From NCBI GenBank assembly GCA_002791545.1, contig PFXG01000011.1, positions 1-64,000 on the forward strand: a stretch of 64,000 nucleotides of DNA, written 5' to 3'. The position numbers and the translations under genes are program-made. Positions 745-21,081 of the stretch are shown one piece after another. Below the pieces are notes generated by a model. That model did no database searches. It saw nothing but the letters and a program-made list of their open reading frames with translations, and was not told the origin of the DNA. This DNA is from Zetaproteobacteria bacterium CG_4_9_14_3_um_filter_49_83. GTDB lineage: Bacteria > Pseudomonadota > Zetaproteobacteria > Mariprofundales > Mariprofundaceae. Each line of letters opens with the position of its first letter. Positions within the stretch are counted from its first letter, which is position 1.

Positions 745-762
745 CTTAAAACCAGGAGAAGA

Positions 763-3827: not shown

Positions 3828-4613
3828 TCAGTGGCTAGGAGCGCGTGGATTTCCTGCTGTGGTTGGCTTAGCCAATGTAAGGAATGCAGCCAGGTTAGCG
3901 ATATCCTCATCTGACAGGTTAGCAGCGATTGCGCGCATTTGACCCATATAGTCGTTAACGCGCATATTGTCTTCCTTCTCGCCCATCTGGTCTTTGCTCA
4001 ATGTCGCAGCCCCAAACTTTTGATAACCATTGCGGAAAGATGTCAGCTCATGTTGCAGATACACATAGTTTTGACCACCGATTGCAGGGTACATACGACC
4101 TGCAGAACGACCATGGAAACCATGACAGCTCTGGCAAGCAGCAACACCCTGAGCTAGCGCACCATATTCAGCAATCATCTTACCTTTATGCGGATCACCG
4201 ACTTCTGCACCATCACGGCGCAACTGGTCAAGGTTAGAACCGATATATGGCGTCTTCAGCGTATGAACATATGCTGCAACATCTTTCATATCCTGTTCAG
4301 TTAGACCTTTTGCAATATCGTTCATTTGATACATAGTATCATCAGTACGCAGATCCTTCGAAAAATCAACCAACTGCTTCAATACATAACTGCTGGTCTG
4401 ATAAGCCAGACGTGGGGAACCAATCCCATCATCACCCAAACCATCCGGAGCATGACACCCTTCACAAGCCGGTACAGCATCACCCTTACCCAACTGGTAG
4501 ATAACGCGACCATGCTCAGCATTACCAATATCTTCTTCTGCACTTGCAGCTATTGGAGCAGCCAACCATGTAGCCGCAGTCAACAAACTGATCACACTTA
4601 TAATACGTTTCAT
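3828..4613 (-). CDS. Periplasmic diheme cytochrome c, c4-like
   Basis: The protein (261 residues) starts with a clear signal peptide ending near AASA (residue 25). It carries two heme-attachment motifs, CEGCH near residue 50 and CQSCH near residue 160, each followed by its own cytochrome c fold. The two similar halves and the size match cytochrome c4-type electron carriers, which usually deliver electrons to terminal oxidases. An AGGGAAATGG-type purine-rich ribosome site precedes the ATG. Upstream on the same strand are a 45-residue membrane protein and another membrane protein, probably in the same operon. Its likely partner here is the cbb3 oxidase or one of the variant complexes. Confidence 0.85.
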   Translation of the reverse strand: MKRIISVISLLTAATWLAAPIAASAEEDIGNAEHGRVIYQLGKGDAVPACEGCHAPDGLGDDGIGSPRLAYQTSSYVLKQLVDFSKDLRTDDTMYQMNDIAKGLTEQDMKDVAAYVHTLKTPYIGSNLDQLRRDGAEVGDPHKGKMIAEYGALAQGVAACQSCHGFHGRSAGRMYPAIGGQNYVYLQHELTSFRNGYQKFGAATLSKDQMGEKEDNMRVNDYMGQMRAIAANLSDEDIANLAAFLTLAKPTTAGNPRAPSH

Positions 4614-5428: not shown

Positions 5429-5962
5429 ATGACAATTGAACCCCATACACATCGCGAAAATCTTTATCTTGTAAAATTTTTACTTATGTCAGTGATTTCA
5501 TTTTTCATTGGAACAGTCCATGGACTGTTGCAAGTAGTTCCCTCTGTTCGCGCCTGGCTCGACTCCATTGGAAGCCCTTATGGTGGGCCAGGTCACATGA
5601 TTGATCCACTGGCACATGCACATATCAACCTGGTTGGTGGTGTCACCATCCTCGGCATGGCCGTAACCTATTACATGCTACCTAAAATTACTGGCAAAGC
5701 GCTCTATTCACTTAAGCTTGCCAACCATTCATTCTGGTGGACAACTATTGGCGTGGGATGCTTCTACACCGCATTGCTGATCTTTGGCTTTATCGAAGGA
5801 AATCTGTGGCTTACTGACCCTGCAGCCGTGCCTGCCATACACAAATATTATGGTCCGGTCATTTCTGTTTCGGCTACCGTCCTAGCTGTCGGTTTCTGGG
5901 TTTATCTGGGCAATGTAGTACTCACCATAAAAGATGTTTACAGGAAAAAGGCAATTGACTGA
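5429..5962 (+). CDS. Short CcoN-like (heme-copper oxidase subunit I-like) protein
   Basis: The 177 residues give four membrane helices. The segment LAHAHINLVGG near residue 62, followed by TYYMLPKITGKALYSLKLANHSFW, closely resembles the last third of CcoN in this window (VAHAHLALLGF and what follows). In CcoN that helix carries the two histidines that ligate the b-type hemes. The CuB histidines, the cross-linked tyrosine and the other low-spin heme ligand are absent, so this cannot be a complete oxidase. It may bind a heme or act as a structural subunit. Its plus orientation is opposite to the flanking cytochrome genes. A relative lies at 20572-21081. Confidence 0.75.
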   Translation: MTIEPHTHRENLYLVKFLLMSVISFFIGTVHGLLQVVPSVRAWLDSIGSPYGGPGHMIDPLAHAHINLVGGVTILGMAVTYYMLPKITGKALYSLKLANHSFWWTTIGVGCFYTALLIFGFIEGNLWLTDPAAVPAIHKYYGPVISVSATVLAVGFWVYLGNVVLTIKDVYRKKAID

Positions 5963-6520: not shown

Positions 6521-6880
6521 TTAATCTTGATCCACATCACTTTTATCCTGACGTAAATACGCAATAACATCAGATCTGTCACGCCCACTTAGTGGTGGCA
6601 TCACCATTTCGGTGTTGGGCTTCACAGCCCTTGGATTTGTCAGCCACTGATCCAGCGCCACTTCATCCCAGCGCTCGTATGGCACGCCTTCAATAACCGG
6701 CTTGCGGTTAAATATATCTTTCAGTCCGGGGCCAATACGTACCGATGCCAGATGCAAATGATGACATGGCGTACAGCGAACTTCTGCAACCACCTTTCCT
6801 CGCTCAGCATCATTAGCATATACCGTTTGACATATGCCTAGCACAGGCAAAAGCAACGATAACTTCACCGATACTCTCAT
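6521..6880 (-). CDS. Monoheme class I cytochrome c
   Basis: The 119-residue protein has a signal peptide (cleavage near VYAN, residue 23), one CTPCH heme motif near residue 36, and a possible axial methionine in the EMVMPPLSGRD segment near residue 93. The layout is that of small soluble periplasmic cytochromes c that shuttle electrons to oxidases. It is the last gene of the minus-strand block running from 15340 and touches the preceding lipoprotein gene with no gap. Confidence 0.85.
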   Translation of the reverse strand: MRVSVKLSLLLPVLGICQTVYANDAERGKVVAEVRCTPCHHLHLASVRIGPGLKDIFNRKPVIEGVPYERWDEVALDQWLTNPRAVKPNTEMVMPPLSGRDRSDVIAYLRQDKSDVDQD

Positions 6881-7269
6881 TACTGTGCCCGAGCAGGAGA
6901 TAAAGCAAACATCAGTTCAGTTGATTCTCCACGACGCTTCAACTTTACATACAGGCGATCTTTTTGAACATCTTTCACCGGCAGGGCCTTGCGAAACACT
7001 CCCAGCGCCCCATCCGGCATAGCTTGTTTCCAGTCAGAATGGTCAGTGCGCACATCCACCATTAAATCAGATGAAAAACCACGTTGCTGACGATTGGCAA
7101 TCACCAAAAATTCATTCATACCAACACGCAACTGCGTTGGCCGTGTTTCAATCTTAATCTCAAGATCCTGCCATGTCTGGGCTGATGGTGCCCATGCCTG
7201 CTCATTACCAGAACAAGAAACAAGCAGCAAACTAAAAAAAACAGACAGTAAAACCCTAAATATCATCAT
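6880..7269 (-). CDS. Predicted lipoprotein, FixH/YtkA-like
   Basis: A lipobox (LLVSC, cysteine near residue 19) follows a short hydrophobic leader, so the protein should be a membrane-anchored periplasmic lipoprotein. The remaining 110 residues look like an all-beta domain. The pattern with VRVGMNEF and VDVRTDHSDWKQAM resembles FixH/YtkA-type domains found near cbb3 oxidase genes, but the similarity is weak by eye. It overlaps the next upstream gene by 4 bp and abuts the cytochrome downstream. Confidence 0.6.
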   Translation of the reverse strand: MMIFRVLLSVFFSLLLVSCSGNEQAWAPSAQTWQDLEIKIETRPTQLRVGMNEFLVIANRQQRGFSSDLMVDVRTDHSDWKQAMPDGALGVFRKALPVKDVQKDRLYVKLKRRGESTELMFALSPARAQ

Positions 7270-7586
7270 AGTGTTGAGTCCGACTTGGCAAAACGCTCCA
7301 GATATCGACGCAGGATTTGCATATCCTGAGCGATGATTGGATCCATTCGACGTTCAACCCTGTGTTGTTGCATGCGGGCAATCACGTTGGGCCATTCTTT
7401 TGCCACATGCGCATCCGGAAGTGGAGGCGCGTGACAACTGGAACAATAACTCGAATACACTTTAAAATCATTTGAAGCCTCTTCAGGATAATCTATGTGC
7501 GTGCGATTAACAGACTGATCGCAGGATACCAGCACCAGCATAGCTGCCAACAATAACATTGCAGTTTTCGTGGCGATGGACATCAC
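7266..7586 (-). CDS. Lipoprotein monoheme cytochrome c
   Basis: The 106-residue product has a lipobox (LVLVSC near residue 22) and one CSSCH heme motif near residue 51, followed by a short helical domain. It is therefore probably a lipid-anchored periplasmic cytochrome c. A methionine-containing stretch (RRMDPIIAQDMQ) could supply the sixth ligand. It overlaps both neighbours by 4 bp, so it is translated together with them. Confidence 0.8.
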   Translation of the reverse strand: MMSIATKTAMLLLAAMLVLVSCDQSVNRTHIDYPEEASNDFKVYSSYCSSCHAPPLPDAHVAKEWPNVIARMQQHRVERRMDPIIAQDMQILRRYLERFAKSDSTL

Positions 7587-8035
7587 TTTGGCATATCCAC
7601 ATCATCATAATCATCCTTATCACTATCCAGCTTTCCGGCCCGTGAAGATCCATACAATGTAGTCATGAAATAGATAAACAGACTTGCGATGATAGCATAT
7701 AAACCGGCAGCAACATGTCCCCATGTAAACCAGGCTCTGGGAGCCTCAGGGCGGTCTCCCCAAAATGGCAGCGTCAAACCAAATGCCACCAACAATACCA
7801 TAATGATGATGCCGATAAACCATGCCGGAACATGCCGCTGTGATTCAGGAATTTTCTCGACCAATTCCCAGTCTTCAAGTCCCCGTTTATTCAAGCGCTC
7901 TTCATCCGTTGCATAGCCAAAATGATCTTCCGGGATTTCGCCCCACTTTTTATCTACAGGCGCAGTTGGTCGAACTGATTCACCAGCAACATCTTCATTT
8001 TTGCTTTGTAGCATATTATTCACCTTACCCATCAA
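7583..8035 (-). CDS. Two-TM protein related to the heme-less CcoP-like subunit
   Basis: The 150-residue protein has a charged 65-residue N-terminus, a helix at about 70-92, the motif TLPFWGDRPEAP, and a second helix at about 105-128. The first helix and the TLPFWGDRP motif match TFPLYGQRPTA after the first helix of the CcoP-like protein at 15592-16245, so the two look like paralogues. No CxxCH is present. It overlaps the FixG-like gene by 4 bp. The role is unknown, probably a structural subunit. Confidence 0.65.
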   Translation of the reverse strand: MMGKVNNMLQSKNEDVAGESVRPTAPVDKKWGEIPEDHFGYATDEERLNKRGLEDWELVEKIPESQRHVPAWFIGIIIMVLLVAFGLTLPFWGDRPEAPRAWFTWGHVAAGLYAIIASLFIYFMTTLYGSSRAGKLDSDKDDYDDVDMPK

Positions 8036-9381
8036 GATTTCGCAGGTATCTGCTTACGGACAAAATGCACGGCTTGAAAATCACGGGTCCAGCCACCATC
8101 AGCAGTAACGATCACACGAAAACGATATAAACCTTCCGCCAATTGGTCAGAGAATCTCAGCACCACATCCTGCCTTCCGGCACTCTGAAACTGAACATCC
8201 TGTGTTTGCAGAGAGAACAAAGATGGGTCAATTCCTTCAACACGGATATGCATGTGCTCCGCTTGATTAATTTTGTAGGCCAGATTAATTCGATAATCAT
8301 GAATCTGATCTGCCTGATTTGAATCAGATCTGTATACTGAAAACGATGCAGGCTCATAACTGGCGACACCATATACAACCATGATCGCTCCGGCCACTGT
8401 AGCGAAAGTGGCTGCGCGAGCCCGACTAAAAAATGAGCCTAACATCCCCCGATATTTTCCTTGCCACTCGTCACCAAGCTTAAGTGTTAATAGTCCGGGC
8501 CCGTCGAGCTTTTTACTTTTACTATGCAATTCATCACAGGCAACCACACAAGCACCACAGTTCACACAGCTGTCAAACACTTCAGGCTGGCGAGGATCGA
8601 TATCCAGAAAACATGAATCAACGCAGTAATGGCAGCTCTTACAGTGGTCTGAACGTGTCTTATCATATGATATATGCAAAGTGTCACGCGTCTTAAATGA
8701 ATGCTGCCACACACGGTAAATACACATATATTTACAAATAAGATGGCGCATCACACCGATATCCATCAGCATAATAAACACGCACACCATGTAAATCCAA
8801 TGCAGGCCATTAGCCAGAGCAGGATCATACTGGAACGTTATAAATGACCAGATAAGCTCAGGCGGATAAAAATAAAACACCGGAATCAAGGCATAAAACA
8901 TTGATGCCAATAACAAAGAAAAGCCAAGGATGACATAGTTCAACCAGGATTTTCTTCGACTGGCTACCTGCATTTTTATACCGCTGACATCCATCATGTT
9001 GGCCCGGCGACCCAAATACTTCTCCGTCATCATATTGGCCCATTCAGATGCCGTATTCTGCGGGCACATCCAGCCGCAAAAGACTGACCCGACCAGTGAA
9101 TACATCATAATCAACAGGCTGGCGATAAAAATCCAAAAGCCCATGATAATAAAAATATCTGAAAACCAAACCTGATGATCCAACATCAGAATGCCTGATG
9201 AAGGATCTATGCGAAACAAACCACTGGCAGGAATAAGCACCAACAGAACAAGTGTAAAAACTTGCACAGACCGGCGTGCAACATGCAACCATGTTGCACC
9301 GGGAGCATGCGCTTCCCGAATGGGAATTTGTTTTAGCGACTCTTGAGCTGACATCACGTACCCCGTATTTTTACCCTGCAT
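8032..9381 (-). CDS. ccoG: CcoG/FixG/RdxA family cytochrome oxidase accessory protein
   Basis: CcoG proteins are membrane ferredoxin-like proteins needed for cbb3 oxidase maturation and linked to copper reduction. The 449 residues hold N-terminal membrane helices and the FCGWMCPQNT motif near residue 101. Further helices with CKYMC follow, then two ferredoxin clusters (CKSCHYCVDSC and CVNCGACVVAC), and a C-terminal beta domain of the FixG type. This is the full architecture at usual length. Its location in a block of cytochrome genes 8 kb from the ccoN operon, rather than next to ccoNO, is notable. No CcoI copper ATPase is in the window. Confidence 0.88.
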   Translation of the reverse strand: MQGKNTGYVMSAQESLKQIPIREAHAPGATWLHVARRSVQVFTLVLLVLIPASGLFRIDPSSGILMLDHQVWFSDIFIIMGFWIFIASLLIMMYSLVGSVFCGWMCPQNTASEWANMMTEKYLGRRANMMDVSGIKMQVASRRKSWLNYVILGFSLLLASMFYALIPVFYFYPPELIWSFITFQYDPALANGLHWIYMVCVFIMLMDIGVMRHLICKYMCIYRVWQHSFKTRDTLHISYDKTRSDHCKSCHYCVDSCFLDIDPRQPEVFDSCVNCGACVVACDELHSKSKKLDGPGLLTLKLGDEWQGKYRGMLGSFFSRARAATFATVAGAIMVVYGVASYEPASFSVYRSDSNQADQIHDYRINLAYKINQAEHMHIRVEGIDPSLFSLQTQDVQFQSAGRQDVVLRFSDQLAEGLYRFRVIVTADGGWTRDFQAVHFVRKQIPAKS

Positions 9382-9407
9382 CCCTTGCGCCCAAGCGCAA
9401 GATAGAC

Positions 9408-12020
9408 CTAACGCTGCTCAATGGCCAGTGGACTGACATCGTGCAGACGTTGCATCCACAGCTTAATTGCTTGCTGGTCATCTTTATCTCGGCTTTGTTG
9501 TAACATCTGACGAATTGCACCTTCATGACCGGGCTCTATAGCCAATATTTTAACCAATGCCTGTTCATAACTCATACCGTCCGGGATGTTGTTGTGCAAA
9601 GAATCGAACATTCGATCTGCAATTGCAGTACGTGGCCAACGATCCAACGCATTTGCCTTTAATGCTAACCTGGCCCACTCCAGAGCTTGATCTTCCTGAC
9701 CCTTTAGTTCCGCCATCCACAAGCGCACATCGATCGCGCTTCCAGCCCACGCGCGTTGAAACTGAGGTAAGTCCTGTGGCGCAACATGCAGCGCATCACC
9801 AGCCTGAGTCATTGAATCTTTCCACGACAACATCCATTGCCACAATGAATGCATATCCACTGACTGATCATAACGCACCCGTGGCAAAGCATATTCAATC
9901 ACCGGCGACCATTCATCTTGAGTTTTCACTTCCCAGGTATCAGGAATTCCCCCCCAATAACGTCCCAACCATGTCCAGATACCTTCTCCTCCGGTCATAT
10001 CATCCGGATTTCCGGCAAAATCATTCCTGCCAGCCAAAGATTGAATATGTGCGGATAAAGCTGAAGCATTCAGTGAAGTTTTATAGGTTCCAACCATCGC
10101 CAGTCGATAGCCATCGACGAATACACTGGCATCGTCAAACACTTGCGCAAACGTGTGTAATACAACTTGCAAAGACGCGATATCGAACTGATTCAGAGCC
10201 AGCCACTGCACAAAAATACCGCCCTCATGCAAGCGGTTGCGTACGCGCTCAAACTCTTGTCTGGATAATAAATTACCACGACCCACCATATCCGGATGAA
10301 ATAAATCACCCACAATCACATCGTAACGAGCGTTATCTCTACGTAAAAAACGTCTCACATCATCATGAACAACGTCAATTTTTTGCATGACGCCGTTATT
10401 GACCGGATAAAAAGTATCTGAAGCCGCCTGAATTGCCCCCAGTGATAATTCCACCGCGACACAACGCTCAGGCGAAAAAGCCAAAGCACCCGATGCTGTC
10501 ACTCCCGTTCCAAGACCTAAAAACAACACTGACTTCGGATCAGCATGCAGCAATAAAGGTAATCGGGCCTGATTCTTCTGTACAATCACAGCTGTAGGAT
10601 CGCTTGAAGCATCCATACGCTGCAAATCAGATAATAATACCCGCTGACCGTTATCTCTTTCTACGACATGGGTAGTCGCTACAGCATCTTCATAAAGAAA
10701 AATATCACGACCATCATGCAGTGAAGGTAACAATGCGGATACTGCTGGCAGTTGTTTTACTGGCCACATCAACAGCAACAAGCAAGGCAATGCCAGCCAG
10801 AATCTGACATTATTCAACCAACGGAATCCACATATCATTAGCAGCAATGCCGCCACCACTAAAGACATCGCAGCACCAATAAAAGGCACAGCAATCAAGC
10901 CGGCAAATAATACACCCAGTGCGGCGCCCAGACTGTTGGCTCCATACCACCAACCACAGCTCTGCGTACCAGAGGTACCGTCAAAATGTCTTGCCAACAC
11001 AGGTAGCCAGGCTCCAAGAACCAGTGTCACCGGCAATGTACAGAGCAGTATAACAAACCCTTGAGCCAGCATCGCCTGAGCCAGTGAATCAAATGTAGCT
11101 CGATTTGCCCACTGGCTAATGGATGGCAGAAGATATTGCCCGGCAACTGCCAATACGGCAGCCAAAACAGGTAGTATATTAAGCCACCACGAAGCCTTTA
11201 GCCATTTAGCAGCAATACTCCCAAAACCAACGCCCACCAGATAAACCAACAGTAGTACAGCCAAAACATATTCTGTACGCAGCAGCACCATGCCATAGAT
11301 CCGTGTCCATAAAATTTCCAACATCAGAGCAGCAGCACCAATGCCAGCATAAGCCAACAAGTCGATAAACGGTGGGCGCTGGACAGTTGATTGTGTTGAA
11401 ACTTCACCTTCTGCTGGTAAAGCCCGGGCTACCAGCAATGCCAATATCGCCATCAGCGTTGCAAATGCAGCGACACACCAAACCGAATCGTTTAAACCAA
11501 AACCCGGTAGCAAAAATAACGGGGCGATACCACCCATTGCACCACCCAAGGCATTAACGCCGTACATATCACTCACACCCAGACCACAAGCACGAGCTGC
11601 TCGCAGAGCTAAAGGAAAAGCAAAGCCCATTGCCAAAGCCGCAGGAAATAAAATCAGTATCGATGCAACACCCTGAAAACTCTGCCATTGGGCAAGTGTC
11701 AGTGTTGTGCCCGTTTCGGTTAGCCAACCATCAATAGCAGGCATACATATCGGTAACATTAGCGCATAAGCAGCAATGCCGAACTCTAATATCGCGACTG
11801 TTTGTAAGCTTCGCCTTGGAGACCAGCCTGTGCAGCAGCGTGATGCAAGAAGGCTTCCTGCCCCCAATCCCGCCATGAACGCAGCAACGGTAAACACGAC
11901 ACCAAAAATTCCAACGCCAAACAGTAAGCTTAGCATTCGCGTCCAGAGAATCTCATAAGCCAGCGCACTGGCTCCCATTCCGCCATAAGCGATAAGTAAT
12001 AGTGACTTTAAACAAGTCAT
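9408..12020 (-). CDS. Membrane-fused spermidine-synthase-like protein
   Basis: The 870-residue product has about twelve or more membrane helices in the first ~430 residues. A SpeE-type methyltransferase-fold domain follows (VLFLGLGTGVTASG near residue 500, VVHDDVRRFL near 555, VIVGDLFHP near 571), then a C-terminal ~200-residue helical region. Fused MFS/spermidine-synthase-like proteins are widespread, but few have proven aminopropyltransferase activity. It sits inside a block of cytochrome and oxidase-assembly genes, 26 bp upstream of ccoG, so a role tied to respiration is possible. The substrate cannot be read from the sequence. Confidence 0.75.
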   Translation of the reverse strand: MTCLKSLLLIAYGGMGASALAYEILWTRMLSLLFGVGIFGVVFTVAAFMAGLGAGSLLASRCCTGWSPRRSLQTVAILEFGIAAYALMLPICMPAIDGWLTETGTTLTLAQWQSFQGVASILILFPAALAMGFAFPLALRAARACGLGVSDMYGVNALGGAMGGIAPLFLLPGFGLNDSVWCVAAFATLMAILALLVARALPAEGEVSTQSTVQRPPFIDLLAYAGIGAAALMLEILWTRIYGMVLLRTEYVLAVLLLVYLVGVGFGSIAAKWLKASWWLNILPVLAAVLAVAGQYLLPSISQWANRATFDSLAQAMLAQGFVILLCTLPVTLVLGAWLPVLARHFDGTSGTQSCGWWYGANSLGAALGVLFAGLIAVPFIGAAMSLVVAALLLMICGFRWLNNVRFWLALPCLLLLMWPVKQLPAVSALLPSLHDGRDIFLYEDAVATTHVVERDNGQRVLLSDLQRMDASSDPTAVIVQKNQARLPLLLHADPKSVLFLGLGTGVTASGALAFSPERCVAVELSLGAIQAASDTFYPVNNGVMQKIDVVHDDVRRFLRRDNARYDVIVGDLFHPDMVGRGNLLSRQEFERVRNRLHEGGIFVQWLALNQFDIASLQVVLHTFAQVFDDASVFVDGYRLAMVGTYKTSLNASALSAHIQSLAGRNDFAGNPDDMTGGEGIWTWLGRYWGGIPDTWEVKTQDEWSPVIEYALPRVRYDQSVDMHSLWQWMLSWKDSMTQAGDALHVAPQDLPQFQRAWAGSAIDVRLWMAELKGQEDQALEWARLALKANALDRWPRTAIADRMFDSLHNNIPDGMSYEQALVKILAIEPGHEGAIRQMLQQSRDKDDQQAIKLWMQRLHDVSPLAIEQR

Positions 12021-12081
12021 AGAACTTTTATTTCATCGAATGAAAGGTTAAATGAAGCCGCAAAACGTCTGGCTATCACAT

Positions 12082-12489
12082 TCAGTAGGGCCAAAACCAG
12101 GCAATGGATGTAGCGGCATGAACTGTCGCCAGCGTCAAAGTTAAACCAGCCAGTATGATATGAGCGACAAACACATCTTTTTCAAATGCCACCATAGCAA
12201 TACCCATGGTGGCGGTTAAAAATAACAAGACCAGCAGCGCAACGCCCATCATAAATAATATCTCATGTTTACGCTGAAGTTCAATTTTCCTTTCCGGACT
12301 TTCTTCCTGTTCACCAGAAAACTGCTGCATCACGGCTTCAGATGAAAGTTCCCTCGATGGATCCGATTGTTGATTTGAATTTTCAATTGTTGCCTGAGCC
12401 ATCACAGGCAGTAAAATCAGCAGACCCAATAAAAAAACAGTTCGCTTAATCGTGTTCAGCAACATCTTTTCTCTCAACCTCTTGGACAT
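12082..12489 (-). CDS. Small membrane protein with signal peptide and two TMs, unknown
   Basis: A signal peptide (residues ~10-32, ending VMAQA) is followed by a polar stretch rich in Gln, Glu and Ser. Two C-terminal helices come next, the last containing TLATVHAATSIAWF. I recognise no family. The gene overlaps the end of the preceding gene; a start at the second methionine (12465) would reduce the overlap and place the signal peptide at the N-terminus. It is followed after 61 bp by the spermidine-synthase-like gene. Confidence 0.55.
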   Translation of the reverse strand: MSKRLREKMLLNTIKRTVFLLGLLILLPVMAQATIENSNQQSDPSRELSSEAVMQQFSGEQEESPERKIELQRKHEILFMMGVALLVLLFLTATMGIAMVAFEKDVFVAHIILAGLTLTLATVHAATSIAWFWPY

Positions 12490-12685
12490 CTTTCTTCATC
12501 GCATTACGAACATACAAAATAGCGGATAAAATCATGGGCGCAAAAACCAGAAAGAATAAAAAGATAAAAATCAACCAAGGGGTTTCTATTGTTACATGCA
12601 GGTAGCGATAGCTATCTACAGCCCATGCAGCCTCAGCAGGCAATAACACTGCAAGCATGCATATTATTCTGATAAAGATGTTCAC
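12446..12685 (-). CDS. Small membrane protein, unknown
   Basis: This 79-residue protein has a cleavable-looking leader (ending EAAWA near residue 22), one strong helix (residues ~37-60) and a charged cytosolic tail (KKDVQEVERKDVAEHD). It overlaps its upstream neighbour by 4 bp, so translation is coupled. No family recognised; probably a small subunit or assembly factor of the same complex. Confidence 0.6.
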   Translation of the reverse strand: MNIFIRIICMLAVLLPAEAAWAVDSYRYLHVTIETPWLIFIFLFFLVFAPMILSAILYVRNAMKKDVQEVERKDVAEHD

Positions 12686-13725
12686 GGTTGACTCTCCTCT
12701 TGCTCAATATTCATCGCGCAACGAAACCCAAAAAAATCGGACGCATAGTTCGGCATTGAAAAATTACGATGATAGGCAGTGGTAGAGAAAGGGTCACTCT
12801 TCCAGGAACCACCCCGCATCACAAAATAGATCACACGTTCCTTTTCTTCTGAGCCACGGTGATAGGTTGGATCCAACTCTTTGGCCTGAAACACTTCCTT
12901 GCTGGCAGTAGTCCCCGGATAAGGAGAGAATTCGTCAGCAATCCACTCCTGAACATTTCCAGACATATCCATCACACCATAGGGACTCGCTCCTTGCGGA
13001 TAAGCATTTACATCTGTGATGTGACCGACTTTATAATATGTATTGAGATTTTCAGGGTGCATGGCTGAGCCCCAGGGCCAACGCCTGGCATCCGTACCAC
13101 GCGCAGCCTTTTCCCATTCAGCCTCAGTCGGCAAACGTTTACCAACCCAGGCACAATAATCACGGGCATTATACCATGATACCATAGTGACAGGTTGCAG
13201 TAGTATTCCGTTTGGAATGCGTCCTTCTGTCCAGTTCAATGGAATACGGTATCTGTTCTCAGCAATAAAACGGGCGTATGCAGCCTGCGTCACTGGATAC
13301 TTATCAATTTTAAATGCTTTGACTTGTACCAGATGTGCCGGTTTATTGGGATCATTTGAACGGTTGTCGTCTGTTCCCATGGTGAAGATGCCAGCAGGTA
13401 TAGTAACCATGGATGTGAAATCAAGCCACTGCTCAGCCGTGAGCAATGCCTGAGCTTCCTCAGGCGAATAAGTCTGCGTTCCAGCACTTTGATTTTCATT
13501 ATATTCGTGAAGATACAACTCTTCACCTGCGGCTCTGATTCTGGAGCCCATATCATTCACATCGTAACTGGCTTTACTCTGCATTTCATTCATACGCAAA
13601 GCGCCAAGCTTAAGCACATGTAGCGAGCCACCTACCATGGCTAACGTAATACAGACGACTAATGTCGCCATCATCCATCTTTTCCTTCTCTGCTTCTGTG
13701 CTGGAGAAATTTTCAGCTGTTTCAT
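12682..13725 (-). CDS. FGE/SUMF1-fold (NirV-like) membrane-anchored protein lacking catalytic cysteines
   Basis: An N-terminal helix (residues ~18-40) anchors a periplasmic formylglycine-generating-enzyme domain (from MVTIPAGIFTMGTD near residue 105 to FGFRCA near 338). Family landmarks are clear: KYPVTQAAYARF, WYNARDYCAWVGKRLPTEAEWEKAARG, GNVQEWIADEF and MRGGSW. The copper-binding cysteine pair of true FGE, expected just after RGGSW, is absent (here SWKSDPFSTTAYHRN), so formylglycine formation is unlikely. Proteins of this fold called NirV occur beside nitrite reductase nirK in other bacteria. Here it is embedded in a cytochrome block with 4-bp overlaps on both sides. Confidence 0.8.
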   Translation of the reverse strand: MKQLKISPAQKQRRKRWMMATLVVCITLAMVGGSLHVLKLGALRMNEMQSKASYDVNDMGSRIRAAGEELYLHEYNENQSAGTQTYSPEEAQALLTAEQWLDFTSMVTIPAGIFTMGTDDNRSNDPNKPAHLVQVKAFKIDKYPVTQAAYARFIAENRYRIPLNWTEGRIPNGILLQPVTMVSWYNARDYCAWVGKRLPTEAEWEKAARGTDARRWPWGSAMHPENLNTYYKVGHITDVNAYPQGASPYGVMDMSGNVQEWIADEFSPYPGTTASKEVFQAKELDPTYHRGSEEKERVIYFVMRGGSWKSDPFSTTAYHRNFSMPNYASDFFGFRCAMNIEQEESQP

Positions 13726-14225
13726 GAATTTTTGTTGGTTGTATCTTCTTCCTCAAGTGGCAAAGGCTCAGAGTCGGCGGGCATAAAACCTGGTGAATCC
13801 CAGCTAAAGCGTTTTCGAATGATCAACTCGCCAAGGAACCCGCCGATCGCACAAAATTCCATCTGTAATATAACGAAAACAACCCATAGCCCCCAAGGGA
13901 TGAGATGTGTACCATCTGGGACGCTATAAGTATGTTGATAGACATATAACATCGTTAATGCTGGCGGAAAATGTGCCAGATATTTACCGCCAAAACCGTA
14001 TATAGCACCAACAACAATGCCTGCAACTACAGGTACAATCGTCATTGCAATAATCCAGGCGGCATTGAAGGCTGAAATCCCGGAGAACCATTCAATATGA
14101 ACATCCAATCCAAGCATCATTGACTGATAAACCAGAACACCTGCAACAAAAGCAACTATTCCGCGTACCCAATAGGGAGCCCATGAATTAGAGCGAATAC
14201 CGACATTTGGTCGTTGTACAGACAT
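13722..14225 (-). CDS. Multi-TM membrane protein, unknown
   Basis: The 167-residue protein has four likely helices (residues ~20-38, 50-80, 84-96 and 110-135) and an acidic C-terminal tail. A glycine-rich helix (VVAGIVVGAIYGFGGKYL) is the most distinctive part. No family recognised. It overlaps the FGE-like gene by 4 bp and lies 1 bp from the cytochrome c gene upstream, so it is clearly part of the same operon. Confidence 0.6.
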   Translation of the reverse strand: MSVQRPNVGIRSNSWAPYWVRGIVAFVAGVLVYQSMMLGLDVHIEWFSGISAFNAAWIIAMTIVPVVAGIVVGAIYGFGGKYLAHFPPALTMLYVYQHTYSVPDGTHLIPWGLWVVFVILQMEFCAIGGFLGELIIRKRFSWDSPGFMPADSEPLPLEEEDTTNKNS

Positions 14226-14226
14226 G

Positions 14227-14721
14227 TTAACTACCTTTTAATTTTTTCTCTTCGGCCTTTCGCGCTTCTTCCAAATACCATGCGCGAACTTTCAAACTGG
14301 AAAAATATTTAGCTAAAATATCACGCTCAGTAACGGATAAGTTTGAATATGAAGGCATCTTATACTTTTCTTTAAGTCGAGTAGGCAGCATTTCTTGTGG
14401 ATTAACAGCAGAAAAGTATGCAAAAAGCCACTCTTCACTTCGCCAGGACCCGATTCCGTCCAAACTAGGTGCTGGAACAGTTTCATAAATGCTTTTAACG
14501 CCCCAAATCGTATGACAACTACGGCATTGAAGACTTTTATACAGTTCGGCACCGGATCGCTCCAGGGCCGCGTTAGCCGTAGAATAAAAAGGTAAACCTT
14601 TCTCTGATGTATCTACAGGAGCAGGATTTATGATCGATTGAACAATGGCTGCGATAAAAGTCATAGCCAACAGGATGATAACCGTATTAATTACGGTCAT
14701 CCAATTCATGTGTTTCAGCAT
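14227..14721 (-). CDS. Membrane-anchored monoheme cytochrome c
   Basis: One N-terminal helix (residues ~10-30) is followed by a periplasmic domain with a single CRSCH heme motif near residue 66 and a likely axial methionine in KYKMPSYSNL near residue 121. The design, an N-terminal anchor plus one c-type heme, is that of CcoO-like subunits. The DGIGSWRSEEWLFAYF segment recurs as DGIGSRRTQEWLNAFL in the cytochrome at 21078-21698, so these two are related. It lies between the CcoS-like gene (3 bp away) and an unknown membrane protein. Confidence 0.85.
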   Translation of the reverse strand: MLKHMNWMTVINTVIILLAMTFIAAIVQSIINPAPVDTSEKGLPFYSTANAALERSGAELYKSLQCRSCHTIWGVKSIYETVPAPSLDGIGSWRSEEWLFAYFSAVNPQEMLPTRLKEKYKMPSYSNLSVTERDILAKYFSSLKVRAWYLEEARKAEEKKLKGS

Positions 14722-14724
14722 GTG

Positions 14725-15003
14725 TTAATTCTGTTCTCTTGCAGCAGCTTCCCGTTCAGCCAGCACTTCCTTGCGACGCAACTCCTGACTGGCATTTACC
14801 TGCTGTGATTTTGCGAATTCTTCAGGAGACATTTTGTCACGGTCACCTTCATCAAAAACCAGATACTTGATATCCTCGTCAAATTGTTCATTTTGTGATG
14901 CCCATCGAATGCCAAACACCACCCCGACAAGAATAGCAGCACCACTGATCAACCAGATGTAAAGGGTCCAACCGTCTTGCAATTCAAACATATCAGCCTC
15001 CAT
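14725..15003 (-). CDS. CcoS-like small membrane protein
   Basis: The 92-residue product has one helix (residues ~12-32) followed directly by IRWASQNEQFDEDIKYLVFDEGD. That matches the helix-plus-W(A)xxxxQF/YDD pattern of CcoS, a protein needed for cofactor insertion into cbb3 oxidase. The C-terminus is longer than usual and ends in a charged coiled-coil-like segment rich in Arg, Glu and Ala. It is the second gene of the block, 22 bp after its neighbour's stop. Confidence 0.6.
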   Translation of the reverse strand: MEADMFELQDGWTLYIWLISGAAILVGVVFGIRWASQNEQFDEDIKYLVFDEGDRDKMSPEEFAKSQQVNASQELRRKEVLAEREAAAREQN

Positions 15004-15025
15004 TTAAAGTACGTGAATAGTCTAT

Positions 15026-15340
15026 CTAGAACAGGAATCCGTCAAGCAGTTGCACGGCTGCAAAGATAGAGGCAGCAATCACTCCCAGCACAATGAGAGC
15101 AAACAGAGCCTTTTCACCGGTTTTAATCTCATTACCCTTCTCTGACTTGTAGAAGGCGATGATGATTCCCATAAATACAGCAATAGCTATCATCATAAAG
15201 ATAAAGATTGCTACGCTGTAGCTATGGCTACGCATACTTTCTATGCCCAGGTCATAGGCCTGCTGCGATTCGTTGGCCCAAGCACTCACACTCAACACAT
15301 GTGTAGCAACAAACAACAAGACTGCGTTTACATATTTCAC
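15026..15340 (-). CDS. Small membrane protein, first gene of the 13-gene block
   Basis: A signal peptide (ending SAWA near residue 22) is followed by two helices (about 40-63 and 77-100) joined by a Lys/Glu-rich loop. I recognise no family. The terminator at 15403-15422 lies just upstream on this strand, so transcription of the block from here to 6521 probably begins in the ~60-bp interval before this gene. Confidence 0.6.
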   Translation of the reverse strand: MKYVNAVLLFVATHVLSVSAWANESQQAYDLGIESMRSHSYSVAIFIFMMIAIAVFMGIIIAFYKSEKGNEIKTGEKALFALIVLGVIAASIFAAVQLLDGFLF

Positions 15341-15402: not shown

Positions 15403-15422
15403 AGCCACCCTATTGGGTGGCT
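15403..15422 (-). terminator. Bidirectional rho-independent terminator at the end of the cbb3 operon
   Basis: The stem AGCCACCC/GGGTGGCT (15403-15410 with 15415-15422) has a 4-nt TATT loop. It is flanked by an A run on the left and a T run on the right, so it can act on either strand. On the minus strand it lies 24 bp past the end of the last small gene of the cbb3 operon and separates that operon from the next block. Confidence 0.9.
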
Positions 15423-15445: not shown

Positions 15446-15580
15446 TCAAAAAACATTTTTACGTGGATCAGGTGATCCTTTTTTATGATTATCCACAAAA
15501 AAGCTGTAGACAATCGGAACTAGCAAAGCAATCGAACACACCAGAATTCCGGCAATTAATGGGCTATCTAAATCAATCAT
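15446..15580 (-). CDS. 44-residue CcoQ-like small membrane protein
   Basis: The frame begins MIDLDSPLIAGILVC and ends RKNVF, with one helix over residues ~8-28 and a basic tail. An AAGGAG ribosome site sits about 7 nt before the ATG. It is the last gene of the cbb3 operon, right before the terminator. Size, topology and position match CcoQ, the small stabilising subunit of cbb3 oxidase, but the sequence is too short to assign with certainty. Confidence 0.75.
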   Translation of the reverse strand: MIDLDSPLIAGILVCSIALLVPIVYSFFVDNHKKGSPDPRKNVF

Positions 15581-15591: not shown

Positions 15592-16245
15592 TTAGTGTGC
15601 AATTGTGTGATCAGGGCGCCAGCTGAAGTGTGGCAAACGCTTAACAGCAACAATCACAGCCAAACAAAATCCAATAAAGTACCAGAATGCAATCAAATAC
15701 CCTTTATCCCACCATGGCTGCTTTGCAAGCACAGTTCCATCAGCTTGAATATTAAAGAAGTTTGATATAACCACATCAGGACCTACAACGATGTACTCTT
15801 CAAGATCTGCACCAGCTTTTTGCAATTCAATGATCTGAGGTGCAATGACACGCAAATGATCCAGATCTATCGGATGCTGCTCACGTTGAAACGTATATTT
15901 CGAATCAAACTGTGTAAGCGAATCGGTGATCAGCGCCATAGCTTTTGTGTTTGCTTCGTGATGAGAAATTGTACGATCATTCATCACTTCCTGAACCATG
16001 GTACTATTCATCAAAGATACATAATCCAGATAAATCGCAGCAGTAGGACGCTGGCCATACAGTGGAAATGTAATCGCAATCGCTGTTGCAAAAGTAAGCA
16101 GAAGCAGACCAATCACCGGGCGTGGTAATGGGTTATTGTTTTCCGCAATACCACCCAAACTCTCATGTTCCCATACATGCTTAGCTTCTTTGTTTTGATC
16201 CTCTGTCGTCAATGAAAACAGCGGATTATTAAATGTCCATCCCAT
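15592..16245 (-). CDS. Heme-less CcoP-like two-TM subunit
   Basis: The 217-residue protein begins with a cytosolic segment containing HESLGGIAENNNPLPRP, which recalls the N-terminal 'E-x-NNPLPR' entry to the first helix of CcoP. A helix follows (residues ~44-62), then the motif TFPLYGQRPTA, a periplasmic domain of about 110 residues without any CxxCH, and a second helix (~185-205). In normal cbb3 oxidases CcoP is a diheme cytochrome; here the hemes are missing. It stands in the ccoP position directly after ccoO. It is probably a structural subunit, with a related 150-residue protein at 7583-8035. Confidence 0.7.
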   Translation of the reverse strand: MGWTFNNPLFSLTTEDQNKEAKHVWEHESLGGIAENNNPLPRPVIGLLLLTFATAIAITFPLYGQRPTAAIYLDYVSLMNSTMVQEVMNDRTISHHEANTKAMALITDSLTQFDSKYTFQREQHPIDLDHLRVIAPQIIELQKAGADLEEYIVVGPDVVISNFFNIQADGTVLAKQPWWDKGYLIAFWYFIGFCLAVIVAVKRLPHFSWRPDHTIAH

Positions 16246-16256
16246 TATTTACCCCC

Positions 16257-17192
16257 TTATTTCAAATTCAACACAAAATCTACAAGCATACGAGCTTCAC
16301 TGTCTGCAGCAGGAGTTGGTACTCCCGGTGGATAAACGCTTTCACCTTTAGCATAAGCAAAGTATTGCTCATCCCATGCAGCCAGGTCGATATTCTTTCC
16401 ATCTGCATCTTTGTCACCCCACAAGAAGTCGTAGCGCGGCATAATTGAATGCGGTTGAACCAGACGTGGATTAAAGAAGTGCATCACCATCCACTCACGT
16501 GAAGAGTTGCGCGAACCAACATGCAACAAATCAGGTGCTTTACGGTCAGAACCAAACGTTGTTGGGGATTCGCCATTAAAGTCCCCTACCATCGGAGGGC
16601 GACCAAAACTCTGCCAGTCTTGAGTCTGCTCAGGCAACAGTGTGTGACACCACCAGCACCCTTCACGAACAAACAATGTCTTACCAGAACCTGCCATCAA
16701 CTGTTCGTCCGATGCTTTTAGCGTTGCATCGACATTCCAACCACGAGTTACAGTTGCATACTCCATATATGGCGTATCATTACTTGTAACACTTACAACA
16801 AATACAGCACCTTTATCTTCTGACGCCTGGTCGATTTTACCGAGTGAAACTGATGCTTTCTGAACTTCATCACCCAAAATATTATCGTGGGTCAAACCAT
16901 TCGGAAAATGCGTTCCAGCCGGAAAGACATAAGCTTCAGTCTTATCGATAGCCACGCCAGTTTTCGGGTCTTTCGTCAAGGTTACCTTAATAGGCTTATC
17001 TTTACCCTGCAAAAACGGGTCATAATAGTTAAAACCTGTTTCCCAGCCGTAAGTAAGCTGTTTTTCTAACGCCAGTTTTGTAGATGACATTGAAGAAATG
17101 TCAATACCTGGCAAAATGATGGTGATGAACATGGATAAACTCAGTGAAATCCCGAACATCCAACATCCGATTTTATATTCTCTAAAAGCCAC
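16257..17192 (-). CDS. ccoO: Cytochrome c oxidase cbb3-type subunit II, enlarged
   Basis: CcoO is the membrane-anchored monoheme subunit that passes electrons to CcoN. The 311 residues comprise an N-terminal helix (~10-30), a heme motif CWWCH at 179-183 (family consensus EGCWxCHT) and the axial-methionine segment HSIMPRYDFLW at 248-258. Usual CcoO is about 200-240 residues with the heme motif near residue 70. Here roughly 100 extra periplasmic residues lie between the anchor and the heme domain. It is 82 bp after ccoN and 11 bp before the CcoP-like gene. Confidence 0.88.
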   Translation of the reverse strand: MAFREYKIGCWMFGISLSLSMFITIILPGIDISSMSSTKLALEKQLTYGWETGFNYYDPFLQGKDKPIKVTLTKDPKTGVAIDKTEAYVFPAGTHFPNGLTHDNILGDEVQKASVSLGKIDQASEDKGAVFVVSVTSNDTPYMEYATVTRGWNVDATLKASDEQLMAGSGKTLFVREGCWWCHTLLPEQTQDWQSFGRPPMVGDFNGESPTTFGSDRKAPDLLHVGSRNSSREWMVMHFFNPRLVQPHSIMPRYDFLWGDKDADGKNIDLAAWDEQYFAYAKGESVYPPGVPTPAADSEARMLVDFVLNLK

Positions 17193-17274
17193 GGATTCTC
17201 CTCCCTTATTTACATAAAAACTATTTTAGTTTCAGGGCCAGCGATATTGCTGGCCCCGATTAATAAAGAACCGC

Positions 17275-18681
17275 TTAACGTGTATAAGCCACTTCAGCAG
17301 GCTGACGGCCAACCGGTACAATATCACCAGCACGAGCAGTCATAACCATGTTGTACAGCCAGATGATGTTACCAAAGAACACCATGGTCCCTCCAATCCA
17401 GCGGACGATCATGTAAGGATGCTCAGCAATCACCACGTCCACATAAGGAACTTCATAGATCTTAGCAGCACCCTGGATCAAGCCCGAAATTGTCATGGAG
17501 ACCCAGTACAATGAGAATCCGATGAGCAGCATCCAGAAGTGGAAGTTAGCCAGAGATGCTGAGTACAATTTACGACGCAGCAGAACCTGCATGCCATAAT
17601 ATACTGATGCAGCTTCAGCAAAGGTTGAGAATCCCAGCAAGGCCAAGTGAGCATGCGCCACAATCCAACCAGTACCATGAATATACCAGTTAATAGCACG
17701 CGTTTGTTGGAAACCACCCTGCATATTCAAAGGAATTGCCAGCAACACACCAGTAATTGTGAACTTGATTTCGATGTTCTCAACAAACATAGACCAACGT
17801 CCTTGCATAGTTAGCAGGATGTTACATACATATGCTACAGCTGGAACCAGAATCAACACACCTTCAACTGAAGCGAAAGACTTAAGCCATTCTGGCAGCG
17901 GCGAACTCATCAGGTGATGCGCAGCTGGCGTTGAATAAAACACAACGATTGACCAGAAATGTAAATGACCAACACGATGTGAATACAACGGATTACCAGT
18001 AATTTTAGGCACAATGTAGTATGTGATTGCGGCAGCAACCGGTGTAATCAACAAGCCAAGAACATTATGTGCAAACCACCATGTCATATAAGCTTCATTC
18101 AAACCAGTCAGATGCAACCACTCAGGCATATTACCAACCAAGAACACTACAACTGTCATAAACATACAACCAGCAAAGAACCAGTTCGTTGTATAAATAC
18201 CTTGCGTACGACGATTGATAATAGTCATCCATACGTTCAAGCACCATGGAACAACCATTACAAAAGCAATATACAGATCGATAGGCCAGATATGATCTGA
18301 ATACTCACGACCGGAAGTTACACCAGCCCAAAGCAAAGCCAATGCAAGGCATAGACCTACATTATAAAGAAGACAGTTCCACACACCCAGCTTCTCTGAC
18401 CACAATTTAGTATTACCCAGCGCAGGCGTGATATACATCATTGATGCTGCAAACGCCATGGCAATCCAACCAAAGATCACCGCATGCACATGCACCTGAC
18501 GCATATGACCAAACTGCAAAGCATACAAACCGTGATACAAATCCGGAAATGCAAGCTTAGCCGCATTAAACGAGCCAAGACCTGAACCGATAATGAACCA
18601 GGCTATGGATGAAACTCCGAAGAAAATAGCCGCAGTTCCCTGCGGAATATTTTCCTCTTTAGCAAATAAATATTTCAGCAT
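17275..18681 (-). CDS. ccoN: Cytochrome c oxidase cbb3-type subunit I
   Basis: CcoN is the 12-helix catalytic subunit that reduces oxygen at a heme b3-CuB centre. In 468 residues the key sites are all visible. The low-spin heme ligand lies in RQVHVHAVIFGW (H64). The CuB ligands are in WWFAHN and PAAHHLM, with the tyrosine of VVFYSTPAAHH placed as the cross-linked tyrosine. The VAHAHLALLGF pair supplies the remaining heme ligands. It should thus be an active, high-affinity oxidase suited to microaerobic growth. Two tiny membrane proteins precede it and ccoO follows. Confidence 0.93.
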   Translation of the reverse strand: MLKYLFAKEENIPQGTAAIFFGVSSIAWFIIGSGLGSFNAAKLAFPDLYHGLYALQFGHMRQVHVHAVIFGWIAMAFAASMMYITPALGNTKLWSEKLGVWNCLLYNVGLCLALALLWAGVTSGREYSDHIWPIDLYIAFVMVVPWCLNVWMTIINRRTQGIYTTNWFFAGCMFMTVVVFLVGNMPEWLHLTGLNEAYMTWWFAHNVLGLLITPVAAAITYYIVPKITGNPLYSHRVGHLHFWSIVVFYSTPAAHHLMSSPLPEWLKSFASVEGVLILVPAVAYVCNILLTMQGRWSMFVENIEIKFTITGVLLAIPLNMQGGFQQTRAINWYIHGTGWIVAHAHLALLGFSTFAEAASVYYGMQVLLRRKLYSASLANFHFWMLLIGFSLYWVSMTISGLIQGAAKIYEVPYVDVVIAEHPYMIVRWIGGTMVFFGNIIWLYNMVMTARAGDIVPVGRQPAEVAYTR

Positions 18682-18720: not shown

Positions 18721-18834
18721 TCAATATTCATCTTCATGCTCTTCGTCATGCTGACCCGGCATCAACAGATACCACGCAAACCACATACTCGAAAACGCAA
18801 GCAAAACACCCAGAATTGAAGCAATTGTATCCAT
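18721..18834 (-). CDS. 37-residue single-TM protein upstream of ccoN
   Basis: The frame starts MDTIASILGVLLAF and ends HEDEY. One helix covers residues ~3-24, and the tail is strongly acidic with two histidines. The AGGAAA before the ATG overlaps the stop of the upstream gene (18839), so the two are translated in series. It is one of several tiny membrane proteins in the cbb3 operon and is probably an accessory subunit. Confidence 0.65.
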   Translation of the reverse strand: MDTIASILGVLLAFSSMWFAWYLLMPGQHDEEHEDEY

Positions 18835-18838: not shown

Positions 18839-19105
18839 CTATTCCCCCTTCCTGTGACCCTCAAGCAACGCATGCTGCTTAAGCGCATAACCAAGAATTA
18901 ACACAAACGCAAACCCGAAAATAAACATAATCCAGTCTGCAGTACCTTGATATGTACGCGGATCATAAGGATCCATAAACCACAAACCAGCTTCGCCAAA
19001 CGGCCCACGACCTACAGCCAGTAGAAACGCAGCAGTAAATACCGAGCCATTCCCCATGCCAGTCGTCATGCCAGCGACGATAGTCAACCAGATTGAACTT
19101 TTCAT
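18839..19105 (-). CDS. 88-residue two-TM protein, first gene of the cbb3 operon
   Basis: Two hydrophobic helices (residues ~5-30 and 58-77) flank a periplasmic loop with GLWFMDPYDPRTYQGTADW. The C-terminal tail is basic. No family recognised. It is the first gene of the unit that leads into ccoN, and a stretch of about 280 bp without a gene lies upstream, presumably holding the operon promoter. Confidence 0.6.
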   Translation of the reverse strand: MKSSIWLTIVAGMTTGMGNGSVFTAAFLLAVGRGPFGEAGLWFMDPYDPRTYQGTADWIMFIFGFAFVLILGYALKQHALLEGHRKGE

Positions 19106-19595: not shown

Positions 19596-20060
19596 CTACT
19601 TGTAGCGCTCTAGCGATTTTATAACTGAATCAAAGTCCGCTTCATTGAACTGATTACGATGAAAAACAAATTGTTTTTTTACGCCGTACTCATCCGACCC
19701 CGTTAAGCCAAACGATTTCCCGGCATGATCCGCAAAGAATCGAATATCTTTCAATAAATTCAACATCTGCCCATTTTTTTGTTTTAGCCGAATACGCTCC
19801 CGGTTTATATCCAACGCTATCGGCGACGATGGCATAACAAGAAGCCGCCGCATCACACGAGCCCCACCCACCATCAAAAAGAAAAACCCCAGAAACATGA
19901 GAACTTGCCCTACAATCTCATCATCTCCGTGCGCATACCAAAGCCTGACACCCATCAACAACAGAAATCCAACGGTTGGCACATAAAGCAATAAATCCCA
20001 TAAAACACCTGCTTTATCCGCGTGCAATTCACACTGAACCTCTTCCCATCGCTTAGCCAT
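19596..20060 (-). CDS. Membrane protein, unknown
   Basis: The 154-residue protein has two helices (about 22-43 and 51-66) and a soluble C-terminal half with a PH-like or beta-rich look (IALDINRERIRLKQKNGQML). It shares its first base with the last base of the thioredoxin-like gene and so belongs to the same operon as the short CcoN-like gene at 20572. No family recognised. Confidence 0.6.
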   Translation of the reverse strand: MAKRWEEVQCELHADKAGVLWDLLLYVPTVGFLLLMGVRLWYAHGDDEIVGQVLMFLGFFFLMVGGARVMRRLLVMPSSPIALDINRERIRLKQKNGQMLNLLKDIRFFADHAGKSFGLTGSDEYGVKKQFVFHRNQFNEADFDSVIKSLERYK

Positions 20061-20596
20061 TACAACTTCTTCCCCTGAGTCAGCAATTCCAGTACAGGAT
20101 CAATTTCTTGATACAGCATTCTTCCCGGATAAACCATCTCAACCTTACCTTCAGCATTAACAATAAAAGTCCAAGGCTCACCTCTTACCTGGAACGCATC
20201 GTAAGCCTCTGGGTTATAATACTGATCCATATGAAGAAACAAAACCTGATCACCATATTTATTCATCATTTCTTTTAATAACTGCAACTGCTTGTCACAT
20301 TGGGTGCAGTGCCCCGGCGTAGCGAATTCAAGCACAATAGGCTTATGTTGTTTTAATGCCTCGTCCACTGACCACTGGTACATACGAGGATCCGGATAAC
20401 GGTAACTGGTTAATTTAGCCATATCCCCGCCAACATCTTTCAGCGTTTTGGTAGCCAGAGAAGGCACAGCCTCCCCTTTCAAAAAATAACCACCACCACT
20501 CATGTCACCAAAATCAATATCACAACCCGATAAAGCAATCAAAACTGCGACAATAAACACGCGACATTTCATCATACTTTTCGCCAACCGGCGCAT
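20060..20596 (-). CDS. Thioredoxin-fold lipoprotein with CTQC active site
   Basis: A lipobox (ALSGC, cysteine near residue 25) follows the leader, so it is a lipid-anchored periplasmic protein. The domain carries FATPGHCTQCDKQLQLL near residue 93, a thioredoxin-type CxxC, and ends with the GEPWTFIVNAEG stretch typical of the fold (with the usual cis-proline region). It may reduce cytochrome c apoproteins or a copper site. The first seven residues overlap the CcoN-like gene; a start at residue 8 or 9 is also possible. It is the third gene of the operon 21698-19596. Confidence 0.75.
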   Translation of the reverse strand: MRRLAKSMMKCRVFIVAVLIALSGCDIDFGDMSGGGYFLKGEAVPSLATKTLKDVGGDMAKLTSYRYPDPRMYQWSVDEALKQHKPIVLEFATPGHCTQCDKQLQLLKEMMNKYGDQVLFLHMDQYYNPEAYDAFQVRGEPWTFIVNAEGKVEMVYPGRMLYQEIDPVLELLTQGKKL

Positions 20597-21081
20597 GTTT
20601 TAAAGATATTGTATGCCCATACAAAGTTCGCCAGTAATACGATAGTACCGAAAATACCCACCAGAGCCAACCAGGGACGAACCAGTAGTTCCAATTCAGC
20701 AGGAGGCATTGTTAAACTGGCCATACCACCAATCGTACCCGCTGTACTGAAGAAAACGACCATTCCAATCAAGCCAAGGTTATGTGTCCAGAAGTGAACT
20801 TTCACCAGCTTCATACTATAGATCGGGCGTTTTACCAAGCGTGGTATAATATAATAAACAGCTGCAAATATCGCCATTTCCACCCAGCCCAGAAGATTAA
20901 TATGCGTATGAGCTCGCACAATCAATTTACCGAACATGCGCTCATCAACGAAATGTCTGAAGTCATGAATTCCACCCATTAAGGCGCCCCACGAAAACCC
21001 TATAATACTATAAATCACACATGCGAAAACAAACCAGAGCGTATATTTGACGTATTCCTGATCTTCCCAAGGTTGACTCAT
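20572..21081 (-). CDS. Short CcoN-like (heme-copper oxidase subunit I-like) protein
   Basis: The 169-residue, four-helix protein contains VRAHTHINLLGW near residue 55 and YYIIPRLVKRPIYSMKLVKVHFW. Both align with the VAHAHLALLGF and YYGMQVLLRRKLYSASLANFHFW parts of the true CcoN here, that is, its last four helices. The CuB ligands and the second heme b ligand are missing. It overlaps the upstream membrane-anchored cytochrome c by 4 bp, mirroring the ccoN-ccoO pairing in miniature. A heme-binding electron-transfer role is likely; oxygen reduction is not. Confidence 0.78.
   Translation of the reverse strand: MSQPWEDQEYVKYTLWFVFACVIYSIIGFSWGALMGGIHDFRHFVDERMFGKLIVRAHTHINLLGWVEMAIFAAVYYIIPRLVKRPIYSMKLVKVHFWTHNLGLIGMVVFFSTAGTIGGMASLTMPPAELELLVRPWLALVGIFGTIVLLANFVWAYNIFKTCAGWRKV

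Follow-up and report, generated by a model that had tools for sequence, protein, structure and literature searches.

The window analysed here comprises 64,000 nucleotides at the start of contig PFXG01000011.1 (assembly GCA_002791545.1; Zetaproteobacteria bacterium CG_4_9_14_3_um_filter_49_83) and carries a block of thirteen open reading frames (ORFs), all on the minus strand, running from position 15340 to 6521. We letter these genes A to M in the order of transcription and consider them together with the oxidase genes N, O and P next to them. A first-pass annotation of the same DNA had described thirteen co-directional minus-strand genes, and all thirteen ORFs are present at that place; its mention of many 4-bp overlaps holds for five junctions (D/E, E/F, I/J, J/K and K/L), whereas L/M overlaps by 1 bp and F/G by 44 bp (start uncertain), G and H are 61 bp apart, and the remaining junctions are gaps of 1–26 bp. 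The annotation was right that no catalytic oxidase subunit lies inside the block, but one adjoins it: the catalytic genes N-O-P occupy positions 15592–18681 on the same strand, 0.25–3.3 kb upstream, and A-M follows directly. The first listing omitted two conserved microgenes and the terminator between N-O-P and A-M. The locus is composed as follows (aa, amino acids; TM, transmembrane; E, E-value; AF2, AlphaFold2).

18721..18834, minus strand: 37-aa microprotein with one TM segment, encoded directly before N; conserved motif ...LLAFSSMWFxWYLLMP
17275..18681, minus strand: N, divergent CcoN, catalytic subunit (COX1 Pfam, E 2e-80)
16257..17192, minus strand: O, CcoO-like monohaem subunit with an N-terminal insertion (FixO Pfam, E 1e-18; CxxCH at residue 179)
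15592..16245, minus strand: P, CcoP-like 2-TM subunit (FixP_N, E 0.0017, below cut-off)
15446..15580, minus strand: 44-aa microprotein with one TM segment, encoded in the P-A gap; its motif MIDxDN...YSFFVDNHKK is shared by zeta- and gammaproteobacterial loci
15404..15421, minus strand: core stem-loop of an intrinsic terminator at the N-O-P/A-M boundary (fold z = -7.5)
15026..15340, minus strand: A, 104-aa membrane protein
14725..15003, minus strand: B, CcoS/FixS-like membrane protein with a QFDE motif
14227..14721, minus strand: C, membrane-anchored monohaem cytochrome c (Cytochrom_C, E 1.6e-7)
13722..14225, minus strand: D, multi-TM protein of 167 aa
12682..13725, minus strand: E, membrane-anchored FGE-fold protein (PF03781, E 1.6e-56)
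12446..12685, minus strand: F, 79-aa membrane protein
12082..12489, minus strand: G, 135-aa membrane protein
9408..12020, minus strand: H, fused MFS-like membrane/spermidine-synthase-like protein (NF037959, 81 bits, cut-off 40)
8032..9381, minus strand: I, CcoG-like polyferredoxin with conserved Fe-S Cys motifs
7583..8035, minus strand: J, 2-TM haemless protein resembling the CcoP N-terminus (PFWGDRP vs PLYGQRP)
7266..7586, minus strand: K, monohaem lipoprotein cytochrome (CxxCH and a lipobox Cys)
6880..7269, minus strand: L, lipoprotein with a FixH-like beta-sandwich (AF2 model, pLDDT 84)
6521..6880, minus strand: M, soluble monohaem cytochrome c (Cytochrom_C, E 3e-6)

The identity of the adjoining enzyme was assessed by aligning 27 members of the N family with 15 canonical CcoN sequences. 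N, which aligns end to end with Pseudomonas stutzeri CcoN (3mk7), retains the six His ligands of haem b, haem b3 and CuB, which are invariant in the N family and in canonical CcoN alike, as are the K-channel His and the active-site Tyr of helix VII (Y249). Judged by its sequence, N-O-P is a divergent C-family (cbb3-type) oxygen reductase with a complete active site. The N family nevertheless forms one separate clade (support 100/100) with only about 30% identity to canonical CcoN, and N scores 246 bits against the CcoN equivalog TIGR00780, for which the cut-off is 583. Five positions are fixed differently in this family, namely H235 (Tyr in canonical CcoN), G238 (Ser), H239 (Ile/Val), Q321 (Glu) and D129 (Glu); the substitutions are shared by both classes in which N occurs, Zetaproteobacteria and Gammaproteobacteria, and three of them lie around the K-channel position. 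We take H235 and G238 to correspond to the K-channel residues Y241 and S244 of Vibrio cholerae, and Q321 to Glu323 of P. stutzeri. Lying close to the active site, these invariant changes hint that protons may take a modified route. By inspection, a homologue only 58% identical to N shares the substitutions H235, G238, H239 and Q321. The haem motif CxxCH is missing from P, which thus does not match the dihaem CcoP of canonical cbb3 oxidases; its AF2 model has a predicted helical periplasmic domain, for which no fold match was obtained in the PDB.

The order N-O-P-A-B-C-D-E-F-G-H-I-J-K-L-M is conserved well beyond the window. When 60 relatives were searched with H, N and D, it was found to be kept in about ten genera of Zetaproteobacteria (Mariprofundus ferrooxydans PV-1 and M. 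erugo are among the carriers), and it recurs in many Gammaproteobacteria, far more than chance would give. The refuting outcome named with the first-pass annotation, an order shared by no relative, was not observed. A scan of named genomes retrieved the locus from gammaproteobacterial metagenome-assembled genomes at 76–80% identity. A scan of contigs had initially given the impression that N is limited to Zetaproteobacteria and a few gammaproteobacteria, but a class-wide search of whole genomes found it in 31 of 369 gammaproteobacterial genomes, at 72–79% identity, plus one at 58%. Among 399 sampled genomes of Pseudomonadota, the matches beyond the cut-off all fell within the window's own order. 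All 48 de-duplicated loci that contain N together with H also have O, P, A, B, C, E, F and G, and 43 of them have D; among 25 de-duplicated loci selected for I and L, all have H and J, 17 have K and 12, all of them zetaproteobacterial, have M. D, K and M are thus absent from some relatives.

The genes also occur together at the level of whole genomes. In 26 zetaproteobacterial genomes of at least 90% completeness, N, D and H are jointly present in 15 and jointly absent from 11 (Fisher p = 1e-7), and the gene for the dihaem cytochrome Cyc1, located downstream of the block in the window, is found in 13 of the 15 genomes with N and in none of the 11 without it (p = 2e-5; both values ignore shared ancestry). 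No well-covered genome was found to have A-M without N.

Reading of the intergenic gaps between P and A and before N across the loci brought to light the two microgenes, whose differences among loci show an excess at third codon positions (45% for the 37-aa and 50% for the 44-aa gene). The motif of the 37-aa protein, loosely defined, was recovered in about 80 of 91 loci. The 44-aa protein matched nothing in PDB and Pfam, and searches of solved structures with both microproteins gave nothing credible. The idea that they represent CcoM and CcoQ gained no support from sequence searches, the 44-aa protein being alike in position and topology only. A hairpin followed by a T-run stands after the 44-aa gene, with an equivalent at 59 of 68 P/A junctions; it escaped the terminator-finding program, probably since A/T arms lengthen its stem. 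The same arrangement was seen 0–3 times at each of seven other junctions tested in or beside the block, and at 11 and 14 of 90 junctions between N and O and between the 88-aa gene at 18839 and N, respectively (these motif and junction counts include some duplicate contigs). Since a conserved terminator separates them, N-O-P and A-M are probably separate transcription units, A-M constituting an operon of its own. Matches to an FNR-type box in the window are no more frequent than expected by chance.

Several block proteins resemble assembly factors of cbb3 oxidases, at varying distance. Some labels in the first-pass annotation claim more than the scores bear out: B, called CcoS-like, reaches 14.3 bits with FixS in Pfam (cut-off 23.1), and I, called CcoG, reaches 105 bits with the NCBIfam equivalog TIGR02745 (cut-off 317). 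The label of the 'FixH-like' L depends on a predicted beta-sandwich, with no match to any sequence family; its top fold match in PDB is the copper-resistance protein CrdA (E 4e-4), with modest TM-scores of about 0.5. A family search of the window's proteins detected no CcoI copper ATPase at the locus. E lacks the catalytic Cys pair of FGE, the region reading GGSWKSDPFST, while H keeps a SAM-type motif LGxGTG and GDLFHPD and has homologues at 33% identity in two genomes outside any such block. G has two His residues in its last TM region, H110 and H124, which are invariant in 21 sequences. D matched no family or structure, and profile searches of solved structures with P, G, J, D and L returned nothing credible. 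A broken-looking second copy of D occurs elsewhere in the window's genome (locus L214, 4163–5156), beside a paralogue of the gene at 21681.

A minimal cluster, locus L225, encodes the 58%-identical N, O, a P/J-like protein, A, two cytochromes, B, a thioredoxin-like protein and F up to the point where its contig ends. The presence of A, B, C and F in this minimal cluster suggests that they are the oldest partners of the oxidase, and J and P are probably paralogues, since a single L225 protein matches both. A protein with a Cyc2-like motif is encoded nearby in the same genome (G116; locus L240, 4348–5934), and this minimal set possibly represents an ancestral form.

The genes flanking the locus recur in relatives as well.

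20060..21698, minus strand: upstream arm of conserved order, with a membrane cytochrome, a second short CcoN-like protein and a thioredoxin-like CxxC lipoprotein
18839..19105, minus strand: 88-aa membrane protein upstream of N, adjoining N in nearly all loci
5429..5962, plus strand: short CcoN-like protein corresponding to the C-terminal part of COX1 (COX1, E 9e-13), syntenic in zeta- and gammaproteobacteria
3828..4613, minus strand: Cyc1, dihaem c4-type cytochrome (two CxxCH; Cytochrom_C, E 6.5e-19), with near-perfect co-occurrence

The two short CcoN-like proteins (5429–5962, plus strand, and 20572–21081, minus strand), which stand on either side of the locus, are conserved and share an HxH motif. 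The Cyc1 gene, which in gammaproteobacteria lies upstream of the cluster, is directly followed in the window by a strong terminator-like hairpin (3773–3799, minus strand). Further out, the genes at 151–2441 (plus strand) read as ectABC for ectoine synthesis. Regular repeats resembling a CRISPR array are found a few kilobases from the H-M module of one relative (locus L041, 986–3379).

Given the conserved gene order, the co-occurrence of N and H, the intact active site of N and the presence of CcoG-, CcoS- and FixH-type genes, we put the probability that A-M is a dedicated companion operon of the divergent cbb3-type oxygen reductase encoded immediately upstream at roughly 0.8. The option of an accessory system for the adjacent cbb3 oxidase, raised in the first-pass annotation, thus receives strong support from the linkage of the genes, their co-occurrence and what the block encodes. 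Several observations weigh against this interpretation. In one genus (g4), H-M is located at a different place from N-G, and two gammaproteobacteria have I-L in reverse orientation with respect to H; the locus therefore consists of at least two modules, which stay together per genome though not always adjacent. The terminator means that A-M need not be co-transcribed with N, the proposed roles in electron donation, copper delivery and proton routing derive solely from family resemblance, and we know of no function of E, H, D, A, F or G in any oxidase.

Four other explanations of the locus were considered. The one with most in its favour, though we still think it unlikely, is that the block belongs to a dedicated machine for iron oxidation or extracellular electron uptake, whose last step would be the oxidase. 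The Cyc1 gene counts among those of the locus and accompanies N, Cyc1 and cbb3 genes have been linked with Fe(II) oxidation by Zetaproteobacteria (PMC7029218), and a syntenic Cyc1 region has been described from cathode-grown Ca. Tenderia electrophaga (PMC5371394). However, neither the block nor its neighbours among the window's proteins include an outer-membrane cytochrome-porin or a multihaem conduit, the iron oxidisers CP-5 and CP-8 lack cyc1 and cbb3 (PMC5513912), and further zetaproteobacterial genomes lack N. An apparent enrichment of the Cyc2 motif (as defined in PMC8406198) in gammaproteobacteria, 9 of 17 genomes with the cluster vs a background of about 10%, had come from a set picked by a sequence pattern; an even sample gave 4 of 23 genomes with N and 23 of 251 without it (one-sided p = 0.18). 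Because the motif is not significantly enriched among gammaproteobacteria with N, we hold that iron oxidation is one use of the system and not its definition, and the iron-oxidation machine envisaged by the first-pass annotation is not supported.

The same annotation had also raised the possibility of a separate, previously undescribed respiratory complex, which would then only happen to adjoin the oxidase genes. The terminator between N-O-P and A-M, and the fact that H-M can be separated from N-G, would fit such a complex, but we regard it as very improbable: the block never occurs without N in any well-covered genome, the adjacency is conserved across two classes, and the block has no catalytic subunit of its own, CcoG-, CcoS- and FixH-type genes being oxidase assembly factors. 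The resemblance to these factors could also be read as a sign that the block assists the genome's canonical cbb3 oxidase. Yet the canonical cluster in the window's genome has CcoG-, FixH- and CcoI-like genes of its own (the last a P-type ATPase-like gene), and canonical CcoN persists in several genomes that lack the block; the canonical enzyme thus does not need it, and of all the explanations considered we give this one the least chance. Hardly better placed is the notion of a nitric-oxide reductase as the catalytic unit, for which the divergence of this haem-copper oxidase and the residues changed near its active site might speak. The helix-VII Tyr, whose absence is the hallmark of nitric-oxide reductases, is invariant in N, and the best structural relatives of N are CcoN proteins, NorB being far weaker.

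If A-M is a companion operon of N-O-P, it most likely supplies biogenesis factors and electron-entry cytochromes for the enzyme. The following scheme, including the donor role of Cyc1, the replacement of CcoP, metal insertion by I, L and B and the small-subunit roles, is inferred from family resemblance. Electrons would be brought by the dihaem Cyc1 and enter via membrane-bound monohaem cytochromes (C, the cytochrome at 21078 and, where present, K and M), which would stand in for the missing dihaem CcoP; they would then pass via O to haem b and finally reduce O2 at the b3-CuB site in N. The roles of small subunits or stable assembly partners may fall to A, B, F, G and both microproteins. CuB and haem may be supplied and inserted by the CcoG-like I, the copper-type beta-sandwich lipoprotein L and the CcoS-like B, with E and H as further putative dedicated biogenesis factors while CcoI would probably be provided by the genome's canonical cco cluster, which lies outside this locus. 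The terminator after the 44-aa gene would allow different expression levels for the two operons. More tentatively, N-O-P and the block may together constitute a new subclass of the C family, with many subunits, separate membrane cytochromes replacing the dihaem CcoP, a re-routed proton pathway (His/Gly/His for Tyr/Ser/Ile and Gln for Glu) and its own copper/haem assembly line, perhaps tuned to donors of low driving force.

Compared with the canonical ccoNOQP and ccoGHIS genes, the locus shares the fold and metal ligands of CcoN, the haem c of CcoO, small TM proteins and helpers of the CcoG, CcoS and FixH type; it differs in its haemless P, the five fixed substitutions and low identity of N, the absence of CcoI and the many genes without a canonical counterpart. 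Two cbb3 forms have been described in Zetaproteobacteria and Sideroxydans ES-1, one of them termed 'distal' in the scheme of Ducluzeau (PMC7029218, PMC8788666). According to these descriptions, the 'distal' oxidases are likewise a second form beside the proximal one, with differing subunits, and have cyc1 with the cbb3 cluster. No homologue of N was recovered from Sideroxydans. The available text of PMC5371394 reports that Ca. Tenderia electrophaga shares a syntenic Cyc1 region with M. ferrooxydans, naming a polyferredoxin and three hypothetical genes; the genes concerned, Tel_00495–00510, match I-J-K-L of the gammaproteobacterial locus L229 in order and position, and the two are very probably the same locus. 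That text does not describe the substitutions of the N clade, the terminator, the microgenes or the taxonomic breadth. A conserved cassette of cytochrome genes that comprises cyc1, PC2 and PC3, described in earlier work cited in PMC7029218, probably overlaps this locus as well.

Parts of the locus have thus been published already, while, to the extent that the accessible portions of these sources allow a judgement, the putatively altered proton path and the large helper set are largely unstudied. The iron-specific picture of the locus needs correction, as many gammaproteobacterial genomes carry it without the Cyc2 motif. The oxidase forms a clade of its own, with fixed substitutions in the presumed proton-moving region of cbb3 oxidases, and for energy conservation from weak donors, in neutrophilic iron oxidisers as well as in cathode-growing bacteria, the locus would provide a parts list for one oxidase.

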